A stretch of 39,175 nucleotides of DNA, from assembly GCA_022827025.1 (NCBI GenBank), contig JAJDTT010000299.1, forward strand, positions 1-39,175, read 5' to 3'. The translations under genes were made by a program, and so were the position numbers. This document shows, piece by piece, positions 2,537-33,661 of this stretch; within the stretch, counting starts at the first letter, position 1; each line of letters starts with the position of its first letter. This stretch comes from Acidobacteriota bacterium. Lineage in GTDB: Bacteria > Acidobacteriota > UBA6911 > RPQK01 > JAJDTT01. A model generated the notes under the pieces. The model was not told where the DNA came from, did no database searches, and saw only the letters and a list, made by a program, of their open reading frames with translations.

Positions 2537-3283
2537 ATGAGTTACCAGGAATACAGGGCGGACTACAAGCGGGACGGACATCTGGTCATCCGGCAATTCC
2601 TGACGGCGGACGAGTTCCAGGAACTTGCCGACAATGTCGACCGCTACATCCGGGACGTGGTGCCGGGCCAGCCTCCCAGCAAGGCTTTTTATCAGGATCC
2701 CGAGAAGCCCGAGACCCTGAAACAGCTCCAGGACATGGAGGAGGATCCCTTCTTCCGGGATTTCCTCGATCACCCGAAGATGGTTTCTCTCGCCGAGACC
2801 CTGGTGGGGGAGCCGGTCAGAGGGAATACGGAATGGTTCAACAAGCCACCCAACACCGTGCATCCGACGCCGCCTCACCAGGACAACTACTATTTCTGCC
2901 TGATTCCCTGCAACGTCGTGACCCTCTGGCTTCCGCTGGAGCCCGTCGACGAGGAAAACGGCTGCCTGCGGTACGTCACCGGCTCGCACCTGGAAGGCTA
3001 CCGCCCCCACAACCCGACGGAAGTCATCGGCTTTTCCCAGGGGATCACCGACTACGGACCGCGGGACCGGCTCCGGGAAAAGCAGGTCGTACTGCAGCCG
3101 CGCGATCTGGCCGCGCACCATGGGATGATGATCCACAGCGCGGACCCCAACCGCTCCAACCACCGTCACCGTCCGGCGTTCGCCGTGGTCTACAAGGGGG
3201 TCAGTTGCCGCATGGACGAGGATGCGGCCCGCCGCTACCGGGAGAACCTGCAAAGACAGCACCAAGAGGCTGGAATGGCCTGA
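2537..3283 (+). CDS. Phytanoyl-CoA dioxygenase (PhyH) family protein
   Basis: A 248-residue Fe(II)/2-oxoglutarate-dependent oxygenase, predicted to hydroxylate a small organic substrate in the cytoplasm. The double-stranded beta-helix metal triad is visible: His114-x-Asp116 in PPHQDNYYF and distal His200 in MMIHSADPNRS, followed by an Arg-rich HRHRPAF segment that would hold 2-oxoglutarate. Length is normal for the bacterial family. The start is fixed by AAGGAGGG six bases before the ATG; a longer frame running upstream has no such support and would cross the repeats. The next gene follows after 23 bp on the same strand. PhyH family members in bacteria have diverse substrates, so the specific reaction cannot be named. 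Confidence 0.88.
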   Translation: MSYQEYRADYKRDGHLVIRQFLTADEFQELADNVDRYIRDVVPGQPPSKAFYQDPEKPETLKQLQDMEEDPFFRDFLDHPKMVSLAETLVGEPVRGNTEWFNKPPNTVHPTPPHQDNYYFCLIPCNVVTLWLPLEPVDEENGCLRYVTGSHLEGYRPHNPTEVIGFSQGITDYGPRDRLREKQVVLQPRDLAAHHGMMIHSADPNRSNHRHRPAFAVVYKGVSCRMDEDAARRYRENLQRQHQEAGMA

Positions 3284-3306
3284 ACCGCCTGCCGGGCTTC
3301 TGGCGG

Positions 3307-4878
3307 ATGATTTTCGCAACTCTCCTGATCGGTTTCCTGCTCGTCCTGCCGCTGGCGGGTCAGTCCGGTCCCGTTTCCATCGGTTCCGAGAAACAACTCT
3401 TCCTGGACCAGCGGCTGATCCAGTCGAGCCGGAACGTGGAGCTGGTGCTGAACCTTCCCGAACAACCCCGGGAGAATCTCATCCTCAAAGACCGTCCCTG
3501 GGAGCAGGGGCGGGCGGGCGGGTACGCCCATGTCCTTCGGGACGGCGCCCTGTACCGCATGTTCTACAACAGCTTCGACCGTTCCTACCGGCTCCGGTAT
3601 TTCTGCCTGGCCGTCTCTCACGACGGCGTTCACTGGACCAAGCCGAACCTCGGCCTGATCCCTTACGCCGGGGACTTCGATACCAACATCATCGGCCTGG
3701 ACGTCTTCGGCAGCCCCTTCATCGATCTTTTCGACACGCCGGAACGGCGATACAAGCTCTACTCACGGGTCGGGCGGGCCCGGGGAGAGCGCGATCGGAT
3801 CATGCAGGGCGACTCCCCCGATACGAGTTCGTTCTCCTGGCCGCCGGCCCGGGACGCCGATCCCCAGAGCGTCTACCTGCTGTACTCGGGCGACGGCGTC
3901 TACTGGCAGCGGGACCCGGAGCCGGTGATGCCCTTCTATGTGGGCGCGCCCACCTCGGTCTTCTGGGACGAAGACTCCGGCGTCTGGGCCATCTACCCCC
4001 GGGCCTATCTTCCCCGCAACCGGGTGCGGGTCTTCAGCCGGACCACCGCCGGCAAGCATGGCCTCGGGGAAGCCTTCGACCTGGACCTCATGTCGCCGTC
4101 CCGCCGCCGGCTCCAGCGGCAGACCGGATCTCCGGTCACCGGCCTGCTGGACGAACTTCCGGTGGTGCTCAAGCCGGATCTCCAAGACCCCGACGGAATG
4201 CAGGTCTACACCATCTACGCCTACAACTACCCGGCTCAGAGCGCCTACGTGGCGTTTCCCAGCATGTGGTATTCCAGGCGTCCGGACGACTTCGATCGCG
4301 TGGACCCGGGCGCCACTGACACCCTGGAGATCCAGTTCACCTTCTCGCGGGACGGGATTGCCTGGCAGCGGCCCTTCCGGCAGCCCCTGATCTCCCTGGG
4401 TTCGCCGGGGTCGGCCTGGGAGCATCAGATCTACGGGGCCGGACTGGTCGAGAGCGGCGATCAACTCTACTTCTACTACAACGGCCTGCCCAGCGAGCAT
4501 ATGACCATGGACAAGTCCGCCGACTGGACCTGCGTGACCGCCAGGGCCATCTTCCGCCTCGACGGATTCGTCTCGGCCGACGCGGCCTACGAGGGAGGAG
4601 AGTTCACCACGCCGCTCCTCGCCTTCACCGGCTCCAGGCTCCAGTACAACGCCAAGACCGGCGGCGGCGGTTTCATCCGAACCGAGATCCTGGATTCCGC
4701 CGGCACTCCGATCCCCGGATTCACCTTGGCCGAATCGCACCGCGTCAACGGCAACAGCGTCCGTCACCTGGCCTCATGGAAAGGCTCCGCCGACGTCTCC
4801 TCCCTGGCCGGACAGCCGGTGCGCCTGAGGCTGGTGATGCGGGACGCGAAGCTTTTCGCCCTCCAGTTCGTCCGCTGA
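3307..4878 (+). CDS. Secreted beta-propeller protein, glycoside-hydrolase-32/43-like fold
   Basis: A 523-residue exported protein. The N-terminus is a Sec signal peptide (MIFATLLIGFLLVLPLAGQS). The body has blade-like repeats with motifs such as 'AVSHDGVHWTKPN', 'YSGDGVYWQRDPEP' and 'FSRDGIAWQRPF', each a beta-hairpin with SxDGxxW, as in five-bladed propellers of clan GH-F/J or sialidase-like Asp-box proteins. The last ~85 residues form a separate beta-domain (LQYNAKTGGGGFIRTE ... VRLRLVMRDAKL) that commonly closes such secreted proteins in Planctomycetota-like genomes. It probably forms a short operon with the PhyH gene. Catalytic acid residues cannot be assigned by eye, so it may bind or cleave a carbohydrate or be non-enzymatic. 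Confidence 0.72.
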   Translation: MIFATLLIGFLLVLPLAGQSGPVSIGSEKQLFLDQRLIQSSRNVELVLNLPEQPRENLILKDRPWEQGRAGGYAHVLRDGALYRMFYNSFDRSYRLRYFCLAVSHDGVHWTKPNLGLIPYAGDFDTNIIGLDVFGSPFIDLFDTPERRYKLYSRVGRARGERDRIMQGDSPDTSSFSWPPARDADPQSVYLLYSGDGVYWQRDPEPVMPFYVGAPTSVFWDEDSGVWAIYPRAYLPRNRVRVFSRTTAGKHGLGEAFDLDLMSPSRRRLQRQTGSPVTGLLDELPVVLKPDLQDPDGMQVYTIYAYNYPAQSAYVAFPSMWYSRRPDDFDRVDPGATDTLEIQFTFSRDGIAWQRPFRQPLISLGSPGSAWEHQIYGAGLVESGDQLYFYYNGLPSEHMTMDKSADWTCVTARAIFRLDGFVSADAAYEGGEFTTPLLAFTGSRLQYNAKTGGGGFIRTEILDSAGTPIPGFTLAESHRVNGNSVRHLASWKGSADVSSLAGQPVRLRLVMRDAKLFALQFVR

Positions 4879-5099
4879 TCGAGCATGGCGCCCCGCAAAA
4901 CCACGCCAGGAGGGGCGTCATTCTTGGCGCCCTCTTTCGAGCGTTGGGTGAAATCGTAGCTCGGCGGCTGGACGTCCTGGTTCTTTTTTTCGAAGGGAGG
5001 TCGGTCCTTCCGCTCATTTTCGCGCTGTGGGGGTGATGACGAACACATGCAGGTCGAGACGATGCGGCCGCTCGGTTTTTCTCGAATGCGAGGTCGTAA

Positions 5100-5125
5100 G
5101 ACGGCGCCGGGGACGACGCCGCTCC
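5100..5125 (-). repeat. Dispersed GC-rich 26-bp repeat, copy 1
   Basis: Read on the minus strand, this begins GGAGCGGCGTCGTCC and ends in GGCGCCGTC. It matches 11061-11086 on the plus strand at 24 of 26 positions, in the opposite orientation. Both copies are intergenic. Confidence 0.6.
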
Positions 5126-5183
5126 TTCACTTGCAACATGCAAACTCCTCGGCGCGGAGGACGATGCCACGCCGGTGCCGGGC

Positions 5184-5212
5184 GGGTGACCACACACAAG
5201 GGTCGCCCCTAC
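5184..5212. repeat. REP-like hairpin
   Basis: GGGTGACC (about 5184-5191) and GGTCGCCC (about 5200-5207) can pair, with one G-U, around a short ACACACAA loop. The trailing GTCGCCCCTAC resembles widespread intergenic palindromes of environmental bacteria. No transposase is nearby. Confidence 0.4.
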
Positions 5213-5237
5213 GTCTATTTCAGGCACAGCACACCAG

Positions 5238-5266
5238 CCCGCATTGCTCACCTGGGGGCGTGACGA
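5238..5266 (-). repeat. MITE-terminus-like sequence overlapping the end of larA
   Basis: Read on the minus strand, these 29 bases match positions 12878-12906 (right end of the MITE-like element) at 27 positions: shared TCGTCACGCCCCC, GGTGAG and AATGCGGG blocks with single differences between them. The larA stop codon TGA lies within GGTGAG, so the last codons of larA are element sequence. Confidence 0.6.
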
Positions 5267-6549
5267 CGTTTACCGCGGGCGGCCAGGTAGGGAATGGTCT
5301 GCGGTCCCTGGGGAAGGACTCCGAGGCGGGCTTCGGGACCATATTCGTCCAGCAACTCCAGGACGGTGGCCTCCAGATCCCGAACCGGTTCCAGGTGCGC
5401 GCTCCGAACCTGGTGCGGGGTCAACCCGTCCGATTTCAGCAGGACGCGCGCCTTGAGCTGGATCTGGCTCTGGATCTGGACCTGCCACTGGTCGTGCGTG
5501 GTGACGTCGTCACGGCGGATCCGATCCAGAAAACTGGCGGGATCCGTGGTCGAGGCCAGGAGCTTGCGGTACTCGCCATGTTCCGGGATCCCGTCGGAGC
5601 ACTCCGCGGCACAGACGATGGCGCCTCCCCGCCGGACGATGCGCGCCGCCGCCGACATCCCCTTCACCGACTGATAGAGGTTCAGGTCCAGGGGATAACC
5701 GCTGTTGGTGGTGACGACCACGTCGAAGGGCCGGGCCACCGGCTGCATGGCCGTTTGCTTGGCAAAGCGACACGCGGACCTGTGGGCCTGGAAGATCTCG
5801 CCTGCATGGACGCTGGTAATCTCATGGTCGCGATTCAAGGTGACGTCCAGGCTGAAGTCCACGCCGGAGAGCGCGGCCACCTCGCGAATGGCCGTATGAA
5901 TGGGATTCCCGCGGGTGATCCCCCAGGTGGCTCTCGGATGGGCGATCAGGGGAGCGCTGTGGAGCTTCATGATGGTGTCGAACCCCGCCAGACCGGGAGC
6001 CACCAGCTTGGGTCCGCCACTGAACCCGGCGAAGAAATGGGGTTCCACGAAGCCGGTGGTGATCCGCACGTCGGATTCGAGCCAGATCGAGTTGAGCCAG
6101 ACCGGAATCCCGGAGGGAAGGGTGCCCCGGTAGCTGAGCGTATCGGGACGGAAGGACCGGTGATTGACGACCCTGTAGTTGCGGACCACTTCCGCTCCCA
6201 ACATGCCCTCCAGTTCCTCCACGGTGTTGGAACGGTGGGTGCCGGTGGCCACCAGGACGGTGATCCGATCCCGGGGCACATGCGCCAACTCGGCCAGCAG
6301 CACGGGAAGAACCCGGGAACTGGGCATGGGGCGCGTGATGTCGCAGACCGAGATGGCGACGGTCTGGCCGGACCCCGCCAACTCTCTCAGGGGGAGCGTG
6401 CCCATGGGACTTCGGAAGGCCTTCCGCAGCGCCTCCTCTTCGCACGGGACCCCGGGGAGATAAGAGGGCTCCAGAACCGTCGTCCCTGCCCCGGGAAGCT
6501 CCACCTCGAGACCGTTCTTGCCATAGGCCAACTCAACCCGCACGGACAT
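5248..6549 (-). CDS. LarA-like nickel-dependent racemase (DUF2088 family)
   Basis: A 433-residue protein of the lactate racemase family, whose founding member uses a nickel-pincer nucleotide to racemise lactate; other members act on different 2-hydroxyacids. Hallmarks seen are 'SVCDITRPMPS', 'VATGTHRSN' and 'EPHFFAGFSGGPKLVAPGL', which include the His and Lys positions that hold the cofactor in LarA. Length matches the family. The start chosen is MSVRVELAYG at 6549, preceded by GGAGATCGGAGA; it overlaps the tadA stop by 17 bp, indicating co-transcription. No larB, larC or larE cofactor genes are in the window, so they must be elsewhere. The last five codons lie in a repeat shared with a MITE-like element. 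Substrate uncertain. Confidence 0.82.
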   Translation of the reverse strand: MSVRVELAYGKNGLEVELPGAGTTVLEPSYLPGVPCEEEALRKAFRSPMGTLPLRELAGSGQTVAISVCDITRPMPSSRVLPVLLAELAHVPRDRITVLVATGTHRSNTVEELEGMLGAEVVRNYRVVNHRSFRPDTLSYRGTLPSGIPVWLNSIWLESDVRITTGFVEPHFFAGFSGGPKLVAPGLAGFDTIMKLHSAPLIAHPRATWGITRGNPIHTAIREVAALSGVDFSLDVTLNRDHEITSVHAGEIFQAHRSACRFAKQTAMQPVARPFDVVVTTNSGYPLDLNLYQSVKGMSAAARIVRRGGAIVCAAECSDGIPEHGEYRKLLASTTDPASFLDRIRRDDVTTHDQWQVQIQSQIQLKARVLLKSDGLTPHQVRSAHLEPVRDLEATVLELLDEYGPEARLGVLPQGPQTIPYLAARGKRRHAPR

Positions 6550-7075
6550 TCTCCGATCTCCGCCCGGCAACGGCGCTACCGGCTCTCCGGGAGGAGGCGC
6601 TCTTCCCGCCGCGGCGGTTCGTTCTGAGGCGGGAAAAGAAGTCCTGCAGCAACTGGCGCGCTTCCGCTTCCCGGACGCCCGGCACCACCTCGGGGGAGTG
6701 ATTGAACAAACCCGGCCTCAACAGGCGGGCCCGGGAGGAGACGGCGCCCGCCTTCAGATCCGGCGCGGCGTAGAACAGGCGCTCCACCCGGGCCCAGACC
6801 AGGGCGCCGGCACACATGGCGCAAGGCTCCAGCGTCACGTAGAGGTCTGTGCCGGTCAATCGATAGTTGGACAGAAGCTCGCCAGCTCTTCGCAAGACCA
6901 GGATCTCCGCGTGGGCCGTGGGATCGGATTCCTGGATGCTCCGGTTGTGGTCCCGGGCCAGAAGCTCGCCATCGTGCACCAGCACGGCTCCGACCGGCAC
7001 CTCTCCTTCACGGGCGGCCTGCCGGGCCTCTTCCAAAGCGACCTCCATCCAGCGATCCGCCGCTTCCGTCCCCAT
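6533..7075 (-). CDS. tadA: tRNA-specific adenosine deaminase
   Basis: A 180-residue cytidine/deoxycytidylate deaminase-fold enzyme that converts A34 to inosine in the tRNA-Arg anticodon. The zinc site is complete: His55-Ala-Glu57 (proton-shuttling Glu) and Pro84-Cys85-Ala-Met-Cys88. PVGAVLVHDGELLARDHN and FNHSPEVVPGV are typical of TadA. The start at 7075 (MGTEAADRWM) fits the family; a 56-residue upstream extension would be repeat-derived low-complexity sequence and is rejected. The ~30-residue Arg/Ser-rich tail after 'LQDFFSRLR' is longer than usual and overlaps the start of larA. Confidence 0.92.
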   Translation of the reverse strand: MGTEAADRWMEVALEEARQAAREGEVPVGAVLVHDGELLARDHNRSIQESDPTAHAEILVLRRAGELLSNYRLTGTDLYVTLEPCAMCAGALVWARVERLFYAAPDLKAGAVSSRARLLRPGLFNHSPEVVPGVREAEARQLLQDFFSRLRTNRRGGKSASSRRAGSAVAGRRSENVRAG

Positions 7076-15044: not shown

Positions 15045-18000
15045 ATGAGTGCATCCACCTCTGTCGCAGCGCAACTCGACCGGTCTCGCCGGGACCTCCT
15101 TGACCTCACCCTGCGCAATCCGCTTCTGAACTTTCGCCCTTCCAAGACCCGCGGACTGACCATCACCGGCGAGATCTCACGGGAGATATTCCGGATCATC
15201 GCTCGGGATGAACGTCTGATGTATTTTCTGCCGGCGGGTTCGCGTGACGCAGACAAGTCACTTGAAGAGGGGATTCCGCGGGCACTCCTGGCGTCGATAG
15301 CCGAACACGAGGACCCTTCCTCCGAGCCGGCAGCTCATCACGTCGACAATCGGCTTCAGACACCCTACTCGGCAACCCAGTTGGAACTCCGGCTCAAGAA
15401 CACTTTCAGGACGGCTCACACCTCCATCGAAGAGCAAGGCGTCAACATTCTCTTTCTCGCTCTGGGCACCCTCAACTGGTACGAATCCGAATCGAGCGAA
15501 ATGCGCCGCATGGCACCTCTGATCCTGGTTCCGGTGGAGCTTTCGCGCACCAGCATCCGGGCACACTACCGAATCGGTTACACCAACGAAGAGATCGGGG
15601 CCAATCTCTCCCTGGAAGCGAAGCTGAAAGCGGACTTCGACATCCGGCTGCCGGAACTTCCGGATGTGGAAGACCTGGACGTCAGCGACTATTTTCAAAG
15701 GGTCCGCCTTGCGATTTCCAGAAAGGAGAGATGGACGGTTGACCCCAACGCCATCTTCCTGGGCTTCTTCTCGTTCAGCAAGTTGCTGATCTACAAGGAC
15801 TTGGACCCGGCGTCGTGGCCGGAAGACACACCGCCGTCGGATCATCCCGTCATTGAAGCCCTTCTCAGCCCGGATGGTTTCCGAAATGATGCACCGGACG
15901 ACATCGAAGAAGCTGGCCTCGACCCGCTTCTGACCGCTCCGGACGCTCACCAGATCCTCGATTCCGACAGCTCGCAGACGCTTGCCGTCATCGATGCCAT
16001 GAAGGGCCGCAACCTGGTCATCCAAGGCCCGCCGGGAACCGGAAAGTCGCAGACCATCACCAATCTGATCGCCGAAGCGATCGCCCAGGACAAGAAGGTG
16101 CTCTTCGTCGCCGAGAAGATGGCGGCTCTCGAGGTGGTGAAGCGGAGACTCGACAGCGTCCACATCGGAGACGCCTGCCTCGAACTGCACAGCCATACCG
16201 CCAACAAGAAGGCCGTTGTCGACGAACTCAGGCGTACTCTTCACTTGGGGAAACCCCAGCTCAAGGATGTGACCGAAGACCGGTTGCTGATGGACAGGCG
16301 GAGAAAACGGCTCGATGAGTACTCGACCGCCATCAATACGCCCATCGGCCAAAGCGGCTTCACTCCCCACGAGGTCATTGGAAGACTGGCCCGGTTCGAG
16401 GAATTGGATCCCGGAACCGAATGGCCACTTCTCTCCGGCGGCGTCATGGCCTCTTGCGGGAGGCGCGAATTCCTGATGTTCCGGGAGTCGGTGGCGGCGT
16501 TTCAGGAGTCGGTGGGTACCATCGGCAAACCCCGCGAGCACATCTTCTGGGAAAGTACCCGAACATCGTTCCTGCCGACGGAACGGTTGCGGATCCTGGC
16601 GGCACTCCGTAATGCAGTGGACGCCATTGGCAAGCTCCGCGATTCGGTCCTGACGCTCCAGGAAGCCGTTCGTTGGATTGATTCGGAGCCGGACCTGGAG
16701 AAGGTGGCAAGACTGATCCGCACGGTGTCGCGCGCCACCGGGAAACCGGACCTCGGGGATGTCGATCACCAACATCCGGATTGGAGACTTCGGCACGATG
16801 ACATCGAGGAAATCGCCCGGGATGTTCTTGAGTTCTCAGAGCTCCATTCCCGGTACGAGTCCATCCTGATTCCCGAAGCCTGGGACCAGAATGTCTTGAG
16901 CTACCGTCGCCCTCTGATGGAATATGGCGGCAAGTGGTGGCGGTTTCTCTCCGGCCAGTACCGCGCGGCCCGCAATGGATTGTACGGGCTCTGCCGGAGC
17001 GAGACCCCTTCCGAAGGAGCCGCTCAGGTGAAAATCGTGGAGGCGATTCTCCGCGAGCAACGCCTTCGGAGAAGGTTCGAGGGCTCACGTCTTCTCTCCC
17101 GTCTCTTCCCCCGATTGAGGATGGACCGGAATCCCGCAAAGAATCGTCAACTGAACGAGGTGATGAACTGGTTTCTCGTCCTTCACCGCGAGATAGCCGG
17201 TGAAGCGGTCGATGAGCGAGTCCATGAACTGCTCGACCTTGATCTGGACCGCGTAAAACTGAATCACCTGGCGGAGTCCTGTAGACGCGACGCGGAAAGA
17301 CTTTCTGGAGCTCTCGAAGCCGTGGCGGGTATTCTCAAGTTGAACACGTCACGCACCCTCACAGGTACCGGACTGACCGATCGCCGATTCTCCGATCTGG
17401 AGATCTGGCTCGATACTGCCCGGAACCAGCTCAACTCACTCCACGAAATCGTCCGTTTCAACAACAGCGAGAAACGACTGGCCGAATCCGGTCTGCAGGA
17501 GATGATCGATACTGCCGTTACCTGGCAACATGCCGGAAATCATTTGGTCGATCTGTTCGAGCGCAGTTGGCTGGTTGCCCTGATCGAGACAGCCCTTCAA
17601 GAACGTCCGGTGTTGAGTGAATTCGATGGGAGAACGCATCAGAAGTTCATCGAAGAGTTCTGCAAGTTGGACACCGATTTTTTCCAGCACAATCGGGCCC
17701 TCGTCGCGCAAGCGCATTGGGAGCGGCTTCCTCGTCACCATGGCGGCGGGCAACTCGGTGTCCTGAAGCGTGAATTCGAGAAGAAGAGAAGGCATCTTCC
17801 CCTGCGAAAACTCATGGCCAAGGCCGGAAACGCGATCCAACAGGTCAAACCGATCTTCATGATGAGCCCGCTCTCCGTGGCGAAGTTCATACCTCCGGAA
17901 TCGGTCCGGTTCGATCTCGTCATTTTCGACGAGGCGAGTCAGGTCAAGCCGGTTGAAGCCATGGGCGCCATCCGCCGCGGCCGACATTCGATTGTGGTGG

Positions 18001-19796
18001 GTGACAGCAAGCAATTGCCACCCACTCGTTTCTTCGAACGGATCGTCGAGGGGGCGGAAGACGAGGATCAGTTTGCGACGAGCGACATCGAAAGCATACT
18101 GGGACTGTTCGCCGCTCAAGGAGCCCTGGAGCGGATGCTGCGCTGGCACTACCGTAGCCGGCATGAATCGTTGATCACCGTCTCGAATCATGAGTTTTAC
18201 GAAAATCGGCTCGTGATCTTTCCGAGTCCGGACGCCGGGCGGAAGGAGGTCGGACTCCAGTTCAGGTGCGATCCCGCCACCTACTACGAGCGTGGCGCTC
18301 GGAGGAGGTTTAACCGGGGCGAGGCGCGTGCGGTGGCTGAAGCGGTGATAGAACATGCGCAAACTCAACCCGATCTGACGCTGGGAGTCGCCGCCTTCAG
18401 CATTGCCCAGGCCCGAAGGGTCGAGGACGAACTGGAAATTCTCCGCCGACGAGACCCCGCCCATGAGTCGTTCTTCGCCAAGCACCCGGACGAGCCGTTT
18501 TTCGTCAAGAATCTGGAGAACGTTCAGGGCGACGAACGGGATGTGATCCTCATCAGCATTGGCTATGGCAAGACCGAGGATGGGCGCTTGCCGATGAATT
18601 TCGGCCCGCTCAACCAGGACGGCGGCGAGCGGCGCCTGAACGTATTGATCACGCGTGCCCGCCGGCGTTGCGTCGTCTACTCGAATTTCAACGCCGACGA
18701 CTTGGACTTGAGACGAACCAAAGCCCGCGGCGTCCAGGCGCTCCAGACCTTCCTGAAGTACGCGGCGACTGGAATTCTTGAAGTCCCGCGACCCTCGGGA
18801 GGTGAGGCCGACTCCCCATTCGAAGAGGCTGTCTCTGCGAGATTGAAAGAGCGCGGCCACACCGTGGATCACCAGATCGGATCGAGCGGATTTTTCGTGG
18901 ACCTGGGGATCATCGACCCGGCTCGTCCGGGACGTTATCTGCTGGGAATCGAATGCGACGGGGCCACCTACCACAGCGCCCGCTCGGCACGTGATCGAGA
19001 CCGCCTCCGGCAACAGGTCCTTGAAGGGCTGGGATGGACCATCCATCGCATCTGGAGCACCGACTGGTTCCATCATCCGGACCGGGAGATGGAAAAGGTC
19101 GAGGAAGCGATCCGGCAAGCCAAGCAGGACGAATCGTTCAGCGAACGGACTCCCAAGAGATCCGGGAGCCGCGCGGCGCCGATTTCACGCGTCGAGGTTC
19201 CGGAGACTGCCGAGGTCGCCGAACCCTATCAGGTGGCAACTCCCGAGTTTCGCCTTTGGGGCGAGGAACTCCATGAAGTGGGATCCGAGGACTTGATGAG
19301 TTGGATTCTCCAGGTTGTCCAAGTGGAGAGTCCCGTGCACCTTTACGAGGTGGCGCGGCGAATTGCCACTACGGCTGGTGTGAAGCGGGTCGGGAGTCGA
19401 ATTCGAAATCGTATTCAGACTGCTGCCGACGCTGCCGCCCGTAGCGGGAAAATCTACCGGATAGGCAACTTCCTGTGGCGTGGCGATCACAAACAGGTGC
19501 CGCTTCGGCGCCGGGACCATCTGCCGCCCGCGATGCGCCATATCGATCTGATCTCACCCCAGGAACTCGGAGCGGCCCTGCTTCAAGCCGTCCGTGCCAG
19601 CCACGGCATCGACGAAGCCGGCGCCATCAATGAGGCAGCTCGGCTATTCGGGTTCAAACGGGTCGGTCCGAGTATCCGGTCAAGCTTCAAGACCATCCTG
19701 GGCGGACTTGTCGAGAGCGGCATTCTGACCCACGAACGGCAGCACCTGCATCCGGGTTCAAATGAGATTCCGATTCCGGGGGGAGATGGGAGATAA
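15045..19796 (+). CDS. DUF4011 superfamily 1 helicase with Vsr-like nuclease and DUF3320 domains
   Basis: A 1583-residue ATP-dependent nucleic-acid translocase fused to a nuclease. Order: DUF4011 (about 10-230, RDLLDLTLRNPLLNF); helicase motif I GPPGTGKS at 328-335; a ~600-residue helical insertion; motif II DEAS at 962-965; motif III GDSKQLPPTRFF; motif VI LNVLITRARRR near 1200; a Vsr/DUF559-like nuclease at about 1258-1365 with Asp1286 and Glu1303-Cys-Asp1305; then DUF3320 (about 1405-1500). The last ~75 residues repeat the DUF3320 core (see findings). Such proteins occur as single-gene, defence-associated modules; Hhe systems also combine helicase and Vsr parts, but no HEPN partner is seen here. 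All motifs are intact. The ribosome site is weak. Confidence 0.85.
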   Translation: MSASTSVAAQLDRSRRDLLDLTLRNPLLNFRPSKTRGLTITGEISREIFRIIARDERLMYFLPAGSRDADKSLEEGIPRALLASIAEHEDPSSEPAAHHVDNRLQTPYSATQLELRLKNTFRTAHTSIEEQGVNILFLALGTLNWYESESSEMRRMAPLILVPVELSRTSIRAHYRIGYTNEEIGANLSLEAKLKADFDIRLPELPDVEDLDVSDYFQRVRLAISRKERWTVDPNAIFLGFFSFSKLLIYKDLDPASWPEDTPPSDHPVIEALLSPDGFRNDAPDDIEEAGLDPLLTAPDAHQILDSDSSQTLAVIDAMKGRNLVIQGPPGTGKSQTITNLIAEAIAQDKKVLFVAEKMAALEVVKRRLDSVHIGDACLELHSHTANKKAVVDELRRTLHLGKPQLKDVTEDRLLMDRRRKRLDEYSTAINTPIGQSGFTPHEVIGRLARFEELDPGTEWPLLSGGVMASCGRREFLMFRESVAAFQESVGTIGKPREHIFWESTRTSFLPTERLRILAALRNAVDAIGKLRDSVLTLQEAVRWIDSEPDLEKVARLIRTVSRATGKPDLGDVDHQHPDWRLRHDDIEEIARDVLEFSELHSRYESILIPEAWDQNVLSYRRPLMEYGGKWWRFLSGQYRAARNGLYGLCRSETPSEGAAQVKIVEAILREQRLRRRFEGSRLLSRLFPRLRMDRNPAKNRQLNEVMNWFLVLHREIAGEAVDERVHELLDLDLDRVKLNHLAESCRRDAERLSGALEAVAGILKLNTSRTLTGTGLTDRRFSDLEIWLDTARNQLNSLHEIVRFNNSEKRLAESGLQEMIDTAVTWQHAGNHLVDLFERSWLVALIETALQERPVLSEFDGRTHQKFIEEFCKLDTDFFQHNRALVAQAHWERLPRHHGGGQLGVLKREFEKKRRHLPLRKLMAKAGNAIQQVKPIFMMSPLSVAKFIPPESVRFDLVIFDEASQVKPVEAMGAIRRGRHSIVVGDSKQLPPTRFFERIVEGAEDEDQFATSDIESILGLFAAQGALERMLRWHYRSRHESLITVSNHEFYENRLVIFPSPDAGRKEVGLQFRCDPATYYERGARRRFNRGEARAVAEAVIEHAQTQPDLTLGVAAFSIAQARRVEDELEILRRRDPAHESFFAKHPDEPFFVKNLENVQGDERDVILISIGYGKTEDGRLPMNFGPLNQDGGERRLNVLITRARRRCVVYSNFNADDLDLRRTKARGVQALQTFLKYAATGILEVPRPSGGEADSPFEEAVSARLKERGHTVDHQIGSSGFFVDLGIIDPARPGRYLLGIECDGATYHSARSARDRDRLRQQVLEGLGWTIHRIWSTDWFHHPDREMEKVEEAIRQAKQDESFSERTPKRSGSRAAPISRVEVPETAEVAEPYQVATPEFRLWGEELHEVGSEDLMSWILQVVQVESPVHLYEVARRIATTAGVKRVGSRIRNRIQTAADAAARSGKIYRIGNFLWRGDHKQVPLRRRDHLPPAMRHIDLISPQELGAALLQAVRASHGIDEAGAINEAARLFGFKRVGPSIRSSFKTILGGLVESGILTHERQHLHPGSNEIPIPGGDGR

Positions 19797-29822: not shown

Positions 29823-30269
29823 TCAATAGTCTCGATCATCCAGGACTGTTGTCGAAATCGAGCCGCCACGAATTTGGATCGGGATAAAGTGGGACGTCTG
29901 TCCGGTGGCATCCGCCCGAAATCGCCGGTGACCTCGATTCAGTCGAATCACCGTCGTTGGGTGCGACGGCGAGTTCGGATTGTGCACCTTTGAAGTTCGT
30001 ATCAGTTGCCGCTTGATCGCACGGTTAAGCAATAGCCGCACCGTCTCTGAATTGCGGACCCATTCGTGGGTACATTCGGCAACCAGGAACCGGTCACGAA
30101 ACCAAGTCAGACCTACAAACGCCCGACGTTCCTCGGCCTTGGTGAGCTGTTCAATGAGTTGGTCCAGAGCCACCTCCATATCGACCTCCCCGCCGGTTTC
30201 GGCGGAATCAGAACCTGTTGAATCTGAAAAACTCGATGGCGAACCGACTTGCGAAGCGTAAATCGTCAT
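29823..30269 (-). CDS. Hypothetical protein with probable winged-helix fold
   Basis: A 148-residue protein I do not recognise. The first ~30 residues are Ser/Gly/acid-rich and look disordered. A helix (VALDQLIEQLTKAEERRA) is followed by 'SETVRLLLNRAIKRQLIRTSKVHNP' and 'PTTVIRLNR', which reads like a helix-turn-helix with a beta-wing, suggesting DNA binding. The last ~35 residues are basic. The ATG overlaps the stop of the upstream winged-helix gene as ATGA, so the two are translated together. Codon use looks more AT-tolerant than in neighbours. Function beyond probable DNA or RNA binding is unknown. Confidence 0.55.
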   Translation of the reverse strand: MTIYASQVGSPSSFSDSTGSDSAETGGEVDMEVALDQLIEQLTKAEERRAFVGLTWFRDRFLVAECTHEWVRNSETVRLLLNRAIKRQLIRTSKVHNPNSPSHPTTVIRLNRGHRRFRADATGQTSHFIPIQIRGGSISTTVLDDRDY

Positions 30270-30604
30270 GAACCGAGGGAGGCAGATGATCGGGATCGCC
30301 GCCGGACCGCGTCCAGCTTGTAGCCACGCCCACGCCTGGTCTGGATTCGTTGCCCCACCTTGCCCAGCTTCTTCCGGAGCCGTCCAATGTGGGTATCCAC
30401 TGTGCGCTCACCGCCCTGGTAGTTCTCACCCCAAGCCGCATCCAGCAACTGACGGCGGCTCAGGACCCGTCCCGGGTTCCGCAACAGGCAGACCAGAAGA
30501 TTGTATTCGGTGAGAGTCAGGCGGAGCACGCGGCGTCCGGCCCGGGCCGTACACCGGTCCAGGTTCACGGAGATGCCTCCCGCCCGGATGACGTCAGGAG
30601 ACAT
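30266..30604 (-). CDS. Stand-alone OmpR/PhoB-type winged-helix DNA-binding protein
   Basis: A 112-residue protein made only of the C-terminal DNA-binding domain of OmpR/PhoB response regulators. TLTEYNLLVCLLRNPGRVLSRRQLLDAAWG, ERTVDTHIGRLRKKLG and the wing QTRRGRGYKLD are textbook. The receiver domain that would be phosphorylated is absent, and the frame upstream has none, so it is an orphan effector or a truncated regulator. It is coupled by ATGA to the hypothetical winged-helix gene. A perfect 8-bp palindrome stands 17 bp before the start, a likely operator. Confidence 0.8.
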   Translation of the reverse strand: MSPDVIRAGGISVNLDRCTARAGRRVLRLTLTEYNLLVCLLRNPGRVLSRRQLLDAAWGENYQGGERTVDTHIGRLRKKLGKVGQRIQTRRGRGYKLDAVRRRSRSSASLGS

Positions 30605-30795: not shown

Positions 30796-33330
30796 TCAGG
30801 ACCGAACCAGGACGAGATCCTGACCCCGGCTGGATGCGAACTCCGAATCGGGCCGCGTGATGCGGGCCAGGGTCTTGGCCAGGGGATACGAACTCTCCAC
30901 CTTGGAGGCCCCGACCCCTACCGGGATGAAGTTGCCGCCCTGCGCATCCCAAATGGCCTTGTTCACGCGATAGGCGCGTTCTCGAGCCGCCTCGTAGGAG
31001 GGGTCCGCGAACATGTCCCGGAATTCGGTCATGCGGCCCGATTCATCCAATTGGATCCAGGCGGAGACGGCCACTCCCCGGCTGGAGATGGTGGCGATGG
31101 CGTCCCGGAAGGAAAGGGGCGTCGGAAACATGTAGTGGGACCCCCGCCCGTCTCCCTGGGTCATGTAGAAGTGATCCCGCATGAAGAGGTTGAGCCCGTC
31201 CGCCAACGGTTCCACCGAAAGCAGCACCGGATCATCCTTGCCCAGGTACTCGCCACCCGAAATGACGGCCAGCTTCTCGGTAGAGGCCGACAGCAGGACC
31301 TCGTCCAGGAATTGGTGCGGTTGCGCCGGATCGAACGCGCCGTTCCGACTCCAGACGCGCTTGACGTTGAACTTCTCCACGGCGCCCAGCAGGGTCTGAC
31401 AATGCCCCGGCTCGGTCTCCAGGTCCAGGAAGATCCGGCGGTGGTGCTCCACGTCCCAGACCTCCAGCACGGCCCCCACGCCGCCGATGGATTCGAGATG
31501 CCGTTGCAGCGAACCGCTGGTCCGGGCGTGGTTCAGGCTCCACCAGACGGGCAGGTTGAAGGCCGATGGTCCCGCCTTGTCGATGGAGAGGAGACCGACC
31601 CGCTGCGTCCGGTTGAGAGGCAGCTCCGCGAAGCCGGGTCCCTGCCCCGAGACGTTGCCGGAGAAGACCGGTTCGGGCTCGCCGGCCTCGATCAGCCCGG
31701 CCTTCCAGTCCCGGTAGGCCTTCTCGAGGACGCCCAGTTGAGACCGCTCGGCAGCGGGCAGGTGATCGGCCAACAGTTCCAGAAACCGATCCGTCAGATG
31801 AGCCAACTCCTCCGTGGGCCGGCCGGCTGAGGCGTCCCCCACCAGATCCTGGCCCAGGCCGTACCACTTGTAGCCCAGGGTGCTGGCAACCCAGACCTGG
31901 CGAAAGAAGGTTCGGTAGGCGAAGAGGTGGACCGCGTTGTCGTCGGCGCCGCGGGAATGGGTCATGAGCAGGTGCTCGTCGTCGCCCACCTCGATGATCT
32001 CGGAGGTCGACGAGATGAGGCCCAGTTCCGTCGCTTCCTGGAGACTCGCCTTGGCAACGAACCGGAAGTGGTTCGGCGGCGTCGTGTGTCCCACCTTGCC
32101 TCCGCCGTCGGCCTTGATGTCGGAGATGGTGAATCGCGCCCGCTGGTTGGCGCCGGCAATCAGAGGATCCTGATCGGGAATGGCCTCGAGCCGTCCCGAG
32201 AGTTGTGCAGCCAATTCCGCAGCCCTGGATTCCGACGCTTGAGGATTCAGATAGGGCTCGAACTCGCCTTGCCCGGCCATGTGCCGGATCAGGTCGGCCG
32301 CATCCCTCTGCAGGCAGCGGGTTTCGGGCCGATTCTGGTCGAAGACGTCCACCACATCGGTGTCCGACGGGATGCGGCCTCGATCATACGACTGGTAGGC
32401 GTAGGCCACGATCCGGGCGGCGCCCTCTCCGGAGTGGAGGGCCCGGCTTCCGGGAAAGTCCACCGGCACCAGCCCGACCCGGTACTCTCCGCCGCGCCCA
32501 CCCGGACCGAAATGAAACTCGCCGGCAGCCTGGGTGAATTCGCCGATGGCGGGCAGCCCCGACTGGGAGCGTCCGATCAGGATGGGATTGAAGCTGCCGC
32601 CCACCAGCGCAGCCGGCTCATCCCGCAGCGCGCCCTCCGCGAACCGGCCCCGGACCGCGTAGACCTGGCTCAGACGCCACTGCTCGGCGTCGGCGATGAG
32701 AGCCACCAGCTCGTTCAGTTGACCCGGTCCGAACTCGTAGGTCCGGATTCGCTCCCGGCCCGCGGCCAGGTCTTCGATCGACTCGACCACTCCGAGATAG
32801 TCGTTGGCCTCGATCCTCCGGCCGGAGCCCTTGTCGGGATTGAAGAAGAGGTTGAAGAGAGACCGGTTGAAGAAGCCCCAGGCGCCGTCCAGGGCCTTGG
32901 CCACGAAAATGGGTTCCGCTCCCCGCTCGGTATAGGGGAAATTCAGGAGGCGGATGCCCAGAGCTTCACGCTGGGCGTCCGGGGCCAGGGAGAGGACCTC
33001 CGCCGCTTCGGGTCCGGCCAGACCGGCCGCCAACGCGTATTCCAGGCCCTTCAGTCCGCCTTGCAGTCCGATCCGGGCCGAGACGTCAACCGCATTCTCG
33101 TCGGCAAAGTCTCCGTTGAGGCTGGAGAGGTGGAGGTGAAGGTCTCCCCCGAAGCCTCGAACCCAGGACCCGCGGAGTCCCGCTTGGAGGCCCGAGGCGT
33201 CCACTTCAGCTCTGACGGCCTGCACCATGGCAGCCGGAATCTCCGACGCGGTCCAGCGGCCCAGATCGACGGAAACAATAGTGACATTGGATTGTTCGGA
33301 GACGGAATTCCCCGTTTTCATGTTGCTCAT
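30796..33330 (-). CDS. Double-domain fructose-1,6-bisphosphate aldolase/phosphatase (archaeal class V type)
   Basis: An 844-residue protein, about twice the 360-400 residues of family members, which make fructose 6-phosphate from triose phosphates in gluconeogenesis. The C-terminal copy (about 399-815) has all catalytic residues: Asp408 and His415 (IKADGGGKVGH), Asp450-Asp451 (GDDEH), Gln494 (GLGQDL), Asp584-Lys585 (SIDKAGPSAFN), and Tyr695, Schiff-base Lys698, Asp699-Asp700 (YLGKDDP). The N-terminal copy (about 16-370) follows the same order but is degraded: VDLGRWTA without His, GGDLH, VAKALDGAWGFFN, and SFNPILIG for the KDD block. ATG 33330 (MSNMKTG) is preceded by GGGAGTC; the second ATG is also possible. 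The gene stands alone. Confidence 0.85.
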   Translation of the reverse strand: MSNMKTGNSVSEQSNVTIVSVDLGRWTASEIPAAMVQAVRAEVDASGLQAGLRGSWVRGFGGDLHLHLSSLNGDFADENAVDVSARIGLQGGLKGLEYALAAGLAGPEAAEVLSLAPDAQREALGIRLLNFPYTERGAEPIFVAKALDGAWGFFNRSLFNLFFNPDKGSGRRIEANDYLGVVESIEDLAAGRERIRTYEFGPGQLNELVALIADAEQWRLSQVYAVRGRFAEGALRDEPAALVGGSFNPILIGRSQSGLPAIGEFTQAAGEFHFGPGGRGGEYRVGLVPVDFPGSRALHSGEGAARIVAYAYQSYDRGRIPSDTDVVDVFDQNRPETRCLQRDAADLIRHMAGQGEFEPYLNPQASESRAAELAAQLSGRLEAIPDQDPLIAGANQRARFTISDIKADGGGKVGHTTPPNHFRFVAKASLQEATELGLISSTSEIIEVGDDEHLLMTHSRGADDNAVHLFAYRTFFRQVWVASTLGYKWYGLGQDLVGDASAGRPTEELAHLTDRFLELLADHLPAAERSQLGVLEKAYRDWKAGLIEAGEPEPVFSGNVSGQGPGFAELPLNRTQRVGLLSIDKAGPSAFNLPVWWSLNHARTSGSLQRHLESIGGVGAVLEVWDVEHHRRIFLDLETEPGHCQTLLGAVEKFNVKRVWSRNGAFDPAQPHQFLDEVLLSASTEKLAVISGGEYLGKDDPVLLSVEPLADGLNLFMRDHFYMTQGDGRGSHYMFPTPLSFRDAIATISSRGVAVSAWIQLDESGRMTEFRDMFADPSYEAARERAYRVNKAIWDAQGGNFIPVGVGASKVESSYPLAKTLARITRPDSEFASSRGQDLVLVRS

Positions 33331-33661
33331 GACTCCCAGGCGATAGTTAAAACGATTACCCCGTACCGGCGACCGGATCTGCTGGAGGGGCACCACAGCG
33401 GTCGATCAGCCAACTCTCACTCGGACGGCGCCATTGTACCCTTATCCACCGAAAAAAACGTCGCCGGCCGGCGCTCCCGGCTACACATGGCAACCCCCCG
33501 AAGGAGGGACTGAAAAAAGGTCTCCGTGAGGCTGCGTTCCCAAGGGGCCTCTGACGCGGACTTGTGACGAAGTATGGTGTTGGCAGTCGCTCGTCAACGA
33601 GGAGCGGCATCGGACCCGGAAACGCCACTACCCGTCAGGAGGAGGCGACATCGCAACGCGG
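33331..33661. other. 330-bp intergenic region upstream of the FBP aldolase/phosphatase
   Basis: No gene is credible. The minus strand holds a TACAAT -10-like box (about 33435-33440), a GC-rich CGCCGGCCGGCG palindrome followed by a T-run (about 33460-33480, possible terminator for the radical SAM gene) and a CCCTCC/GGGGGG hairpin. None is certain. Confidence 0.35.

Follow-up and report, generated by a model that had tools for sequence, protein, structure and literature searches.

The window analyzed here, i.e. the whole stretch of 39,175 nucleotides of acidobacterial DNA, contains a gene for a double-length protein related to the bifunctional FBP aldolases/phosphatases (FBPase class V; Pfam family FBPase_3). 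A first-pass annotation, made from the sequence alone, described the product as an FBP aldolase/phosphatase preceded by a degraded copy of its own domain. The locus raises the question of what a second, catalytically dead copy is doing on the chain of a central-carbon enzyme, and whether "degraded" is the right word for it.

The gene is a single open frame of 844 codons on the minus strand (30796–33330). Its ATG lies at 33330, with TGGGAG in front of it, and its stop codon at 30796–30798. An alternative GTG start at 33396 would add 22 aa, and the same longer frame is present in locus L061. The ATG at 33330 was taken as the start, since the aligned congeners all have MS(N/K)MKTGNSVS at this point. 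A scan of the gene region for consensus promoters and terminators found nothing. The features of the gene are listed in Table 1.

Table 1. Features of the tandem FBPase_3 gene (positions in the window).
Feature	Position	Strand	Basis
Tandem FBPase_3 gene, 844 aa	30796..33330	-	ORF, Pfam, orthologues
N-half, aa 1-397, catalytically dead FBPase_3 domain	32140..33330	-	Pfam, PDB phmmer, AF2 + Foldseek, dN/dS
N-half ERGAEP, aa 135-140; canonical invariants gone from C-half	32911..32928	-	alignment
N-half FFNPDKGSGRR, aa 162-172; largely N-half-specific	32815..32847	-	alignment
N-half RSQSGLPAIGE, aa 254-264; canonical R.Q..PA.GE, in C-half lost and partly deleted	32539..32571	-	alignment
C-half, aa 398-844, FBPase_3 domain with catalytic residues	30799..32139	-	Pfam, residue alignment
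C-half D-x6-H, aa 408-415, metal ligands	32086..32109	-	alignment
C-half GDD, aa 449-451	31978..31986	-	alignment
C-half QD, aa 494-495	31846..31851	-	alignment
C-half insertion after GQDL, about aa 503-554	31669..31824	-	alignment
C-half DK, aa 584-585	31576..31581	-	alignment
C-half YLGKDD, aa 695-700, Schiff-base lysine K698	31231..31248	-	alignment
C-half RGSH, aa 729-732	31135..31146	-	alignment

The first-pass annotation had placed two domains of one family within this frame and had named profile search and structure prediction among the means of checking the N-half. Both bore it out. The family otherwise consists of single-domain proteins of about 370 aa. Against the 361-position Pfam FBPase_3 profile (PF01950), the N-half alone scored 57.5 bits over positions 4–338 (E=1.7e-15); 185.4 bits (E=2.2e-54) were obtained for the C-half, and both scores exceed the curated cut-off of 25 bits. 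In a single-sequence phmmer search with the N-half, PDB entries 3r1m and 1umg were matched over residues 15–363 (E=3e-15). Modelled with AlphaFold2 (pLDDT 77.4, pTM 0.81), the N-half gave Foldseek matches at E ≤ 0.001 to FBP aldolase/phosphatase entries only, the best two with TM of 0.73–0.81; the input alignments of this model and of the full-length one contained single-domain family members. The full-length model (pLDDT 81.1, pTM 0.79) has a target-normalized TM of 0.84 to 1umg. Since random placement of two 400-aa domains would normally score much lower, its pTM suggests that the halves stand in a defined mutual arrangement.

Direct comparison of the N-half with the C-half gave E=0.081 in BLASTP. 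When small alignments of the two halves were compared by hhalign, the probability was 21% (E=0.001); both results are too weak to be used alone. The repeat is therefore provable only via profiles, structure and relatives, and the homology of the halves rests on the match of each to the FBPase_3 family. The protein lies within the FBPase class V superfamily, by the PF01950 profile in both halves and by the 1umg/3r1m fold, and outside the NF041126 equivalog (bifunctional FBP aldolase/phosphatase) by score (231.4 bits vs a cut-off of 520).

The fate of individual residues was examined in an alignment of 60 single-domain proteins (fetched loci), ST0318 and the halves of 11 full-length tandem proteins from Acidobacteriota and a Deltaproteobacteria-labelled lineage. 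Canonical residues are given by index; the ST0318 sequence was, except for its first residues, rebuilt from search alignments, and the published number equals the index plus one where checked (PDB 3t2g is described as Y229F, consistent with index Y228). The blocks that had been paired by eye between the two halves occupy the same alignment columns. The D-x6-H (408/415), DD (450/451), QD (494/495), DK (584/585) and YxGKDD (695–700) motifs of the C-half do not vary across the alignment, whether in tandem or in single-domain proteins; the metal ligands, the Schiff-base lysine and its tyrosine lie within one domain in 11/11 tandem proteins, as the annotation had it for the window's own protein. 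The loss of catalytic positions from the N-half was likewise borne out: H18, D52, D131, K132, Y228, K231 and D232 are missing from all 11 N-halves, and Q94 from most or all of them. D11 is retained in eight of the 11 and D53 in every one. The losses extend to part of the canonical pocket (K132, R265, S267 and H268).

Two features set the C-halves apart. All of them carry an insertion of about 50 aa just past GQDL, which is absent from single-domain proteins and N-halves. The column of the canonical C-terminal-loop tyrosine after the ME motif, to which we assign a presumed role in the aldolase step, is occupied by S, Q or P, and an invariant tyrosine (Y815) stands two columns further on.

Columns at least 90% invariant in the single-domain proteins number 115; 47 of these are kept by the C-half only and 14 by the N-half only, while 12 survive in both halves and 42 have been lost from both. 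The chemistry lies in the C-only set, which includes H18, D52, Q94, D95, D131, K132, Y228, K231, D232, D233, R265, S267 and H268. The N-only set, present in its entirety in all 11 N-halves, consists of A84, E119, R120, E123, P124, F146, P149, R239, Q241, P245, A246, G248, E249 and G287. Two motifs within it, ER..EP and R.Q..PA.GE, are found in every N-half and are gone from all 11 C-halves, where the alignment has a gap at R239 and Q241; published Gln242 (index 241) is presumably a substrate contact. On its own, the C-half is therefore short of residues present in nearly all the single-domain enzymes sampled, and by the standard of FBPase class V it is itself incomplete. In the sequence, both motifs lie some 6–17 residues away from the catalytic DK and KDD; we infer that they are on the same strands, toward the strands' far ends. 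The N-only and C-only labels are clustered along the chain (11 runs vs 22.6 expected; none of 20,000 shuffles was as low), whereas the overall anti-correlation of retention between the halves is not significant (Fisher p=0.66).

The tandem gene was found in 4/4 genomes examined of the window's genus (the other three copies at 92–96% identity). Within the same order, a second family has it in three genomes (65–66%), and another genus yielded a fragment of its C-terminal part. A genome-contig scan added an Acidobacteria MAG (L064, 58%) and a Deltaproteobacteria-labelled MAG (L066, 43%). Among 297 genomes sampled from the window's phylum, FBPase_3 occurs in 37, five of which are accounted for by tandem genes. 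Of the 297 sampled from the phylum of L066, 92 contain FBPase_3; four are tandem carriers (G302, G350, G396 and G425), and most of the others have one full-length match. Genome G010 contains a second, partial tandem copy at a contig edge (L022:1-505 / L068, G010:C187), probably a strain variant within the MAG or a paralogue.

In trees of the separated domains, the N-halves form one fully supported group and the C-halves another, with identical internal branching order. The two-domain gene is therefore old and its halves have travelled together. The internal duplication first proposed is allowed by the tree, since a single N+C clade was not rejected (p-AU 0.69) and beat the free quick search by 7 log units. 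The stems are long (3.0 and 2.5 changes per column for N and C, respectively), the two groups stand apart in the midpoint-rooted tree, and these long branches weaken the support, so that the tree neither shows in-place duplication nor decides between it and a fusion of two FBPase_3 paralogues whose divergence was already ancient. We rate such a fusion, which is favored by the long separate stems and the midpoint-rooted tree and is compatible with any functional reading, at somewhat below even chances. Against it stand the N+C clade that was not rejected and the lack of any stand-alone N-type protein among the eight genome-contig matches to N-half patterns, all of which were tandem genes or a contig-end fragment. 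A weak N-half match in G360 was rejected as a stand-alone N gene, as this 373-aa frame occupies the same place as the canonical FBPase_3 match of that genome.

The N-halves share 91 identical positions, 24 of them canonical invariants and 67 non-canonical. In the FFNPDKGSGRR motif, the F, P, D, K, G, S and last R are identical in 11/11 N-halves. Such new motifs (e.g. FFxPDKGSxxR) suggest an added function, either contact with the C-half or a ligand site. Pairwise dN/dS values (NG86) of 0.08–0.19 for the N-half and 0.05–0.15 for the C-half show that the former changes faster yet is clearly constrained, under strong purifying selection. Given these values and the agreement of the N and C trees, the N-half is selected rather than decaying. 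The first-pass annotation was right that it is catalytically dead, and its interpretation as a pseudoenzyme largely holds, but the word "degraded" is misleading for a domain with so many identical positions and a set of invariants that it alone has kept: it is a specialized, conserved and complementary partner, not wreckage. A pseudogene or assembly artefact is ruled out by the low dN/dS and by intact ORFs in other genomes and several families.

The metabolic setting was explored by Pfam search. In the window's genus, all four genomes searched gave no match for GlpX, class I FBPase, class II aldolase or class I aldolase; their sole DeoC-family match was rejected as an FBP aldolase, the copy in the window's own genome being an LsrF-type equivalog (477 bits vs 297). 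For GlpX and class I FBPase together, 8/12 tandem genomes gave no match, the remaining four having GlpX (G303) or class I FBPase (G010, G396, G425). The tandem protein is probably the gluconeogenic FBPase of the cell; that it is the sole FBPase is probable rather than shown, because the genomes are, in all probability, all draft MAGs and the inventory of other FBPases covered GlpX and class I.

In G007 and in the second family, the gene that follows encodes pyruvate phosphate dikinase, a gluconeogenic neighbor (Pfam-tested in G010, elsewhere read from the translation). No gluconeogenic gene adjoins the tandem gene in the window, where radical SAM/B12-binding and DegT genes lie upstream and winged-helix and metallo-beta-lactamase genes downstream.

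Several other features of these regions were recorded. The winged-helix gene of the window (30266–30604, minus strand) encodes a 112-aa protein comprising only a Trans_reg_C domain, without a receiver domain. Two long ORFs on the plus strand (2833–4878, 681 aa; 5047–6627, 526 aa) have no Pfam match at 1e-6, and a third (15045–19796, plus strand) encodes a 1583-aa DUF4011/AAA helicase/MTES_1575 nuclease/DUF3320 protein, a composition known from candidate defence proteins. In the second family, divergent genes adjoin the tandem gene (L062:2690-7462, L063:2388-7432, L110:11485-16060); read by eye, they encode ketoacyl-synthase-, alpha/beta-hydrolase-, acyl-CoA-ligase- and epimerase-like proteins in an olefin-type oleABCD order.

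The reading we prefer, to which we give even chances, is that the tandem protein is an obligate enzyme/pseudoenzyme fusion of FBPase class V, a pseudo-dimer acting as a gluconeogenic FBPase. It is favored by the confinement of the catalytic residues to the C-half, with almost none in the N-half, by the 14 clustered N-only invariants, the congruent trees, the low N-half dN/dS and the pTM of the full-length model. The gluconeogenic role is favored by the eight genomes without GlpX or class I FBPase, the lack of class I/II aldolases in the genus and the pyruvate phosphate dikinase neighbor. For this fusion we infer an intramolecular pseudo-dimer, dependence of the C-half on the N-half, the activity and the oligomer: (i) the C-domain would perform metal-dependent FBP hydrolysis, with the aldolase half-reaction also possible; (ii) the N-domain, unable to catalyze, would pack on it as the second subunit of a former homodimeric unit, supplying the family-invariant ER..EP and R.Q..PA.GE that the C-domain has lost; and (iii) the tandem chain would replace the homodimer, a domain octamer becoming a tetramer of chains. 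The cellular role would be that of a gluconeogenic FBPase. Counted against the obligate fusion are the non-significant Fisher test, the 42 invariants lost from both halves, the other FBPase in four tandem genomes, the window's lack of a gluconeogenic neighbor and the shifted C-half tyrosine.

A stricter version, which we consider rather unlikely, is complementary degeneration of a shared active site. The site of the single-domain oligomer would then combine the catalytic end of one subunit with the ER..EP/R.Q..PA.GE end of its neighbor; after duplication or fusion, each half of the tandem protein would have kept one end, and every site would be an obligate N+C hybrid, with neither half working alone.

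Doubtful, in our judgment, is a regulatory N-half, with a metabolite bound at the altered former active-site region or at the new conserved motif and the C-half under its control. The preponderance of non-canonical residues among its identical positions (67/91, including FFxPDKGSxxR) is in keeping with this, as is the origin of regulatory halves by tandem duplication in 6-phosphofructokinase (PFK; PMC12203962), and a separate fusion of FBPase_3 to a Sugar-bind domain (described below) suggests that there is pressure to regulate FBPase_3 enzymes. The ligand is hypothetical, however; K132, R265, S267 and H268 of the canonical pocket are lost, and regulation leaves unexplained why the C-half has lost exactly the elements that the N-half kept. 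It is improbable that the N-half does no more than scaffold the oligomer, with the C-half a complete enzyme whose 50-aa insertion compensates for the lost elements: every metal and Schiff-base residue does sit in the C-half, and the insertion directly after GQDL is common to all C-halves, but residues that never vary among the single-domain proteins, the N-only set, are gone from all C-halves, and constraint on the N-half is strong.

Returning to the obligate fusion, its relation to known proteins is as follows. The tandem protein resembles the FBPase class V enzymes (PF01950; PDB 1umg, 3r1m, 3t2b-3t2g) in the fold of both halves and the catalytic residues of the C-half. It differs from them in having two domains per chain with a dead N-half, and a C-half without ER..EP and R.Q..PA.GE and with the insertion of about 50 aa, and its score is far under the NF041126 cut-off. 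In the collection of papers searched, none describing a double-domain FBPase_3 was found.

Two genomes of the G302 phylum encode Pfam-tested fusions of FBPase_3 to a C-terminal Sugar-bind domain (PF04198; L112:1047-2960 and L113:1187-3097, both minus strand), and about seven more have similar ORFs, judged by frame length alone (644–705 aa). Sugar-bind is the effector domain family of CggR/SorC-type regulators, and the fusion is possibly a self-sensing FBP aldolase/phosphatase. Like the tandem protein, it has an extra, plausibly regulatory domain on an FBPase_3 chain; unlike in the tandem protein, this domain is unrelated and C-terminal, and the catalytic domain is canonical (590–596 bits).

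The division of invariant residues between the halves provides specific, testable residues for the question of how an active domain comes to depend on a pseudoenzyme partner. In the lineages concerned, a rare group of uncultured bacteria in which a key sugar-building enzyme has been made double-length, the tandem enzyme may be the only FBPase. The closest parallel for its possible working mode is the tandem-duplicated eukaryotic PFK, whose N-half carries out catalysis and whose C-half regulates (PMC12203962). Both are double-length central-carbon enzymes with one catalytic half and one that is not, but their folds are unrelated and the catalytic half is N-terminal in PFK and C-terminal here. 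The tandem FBPase_3 thus has the appearance of a bacterial, FBPase-side counterpart of tandem PFK, in which catalysis and support (or regulation) are split between two copies of its own fold.
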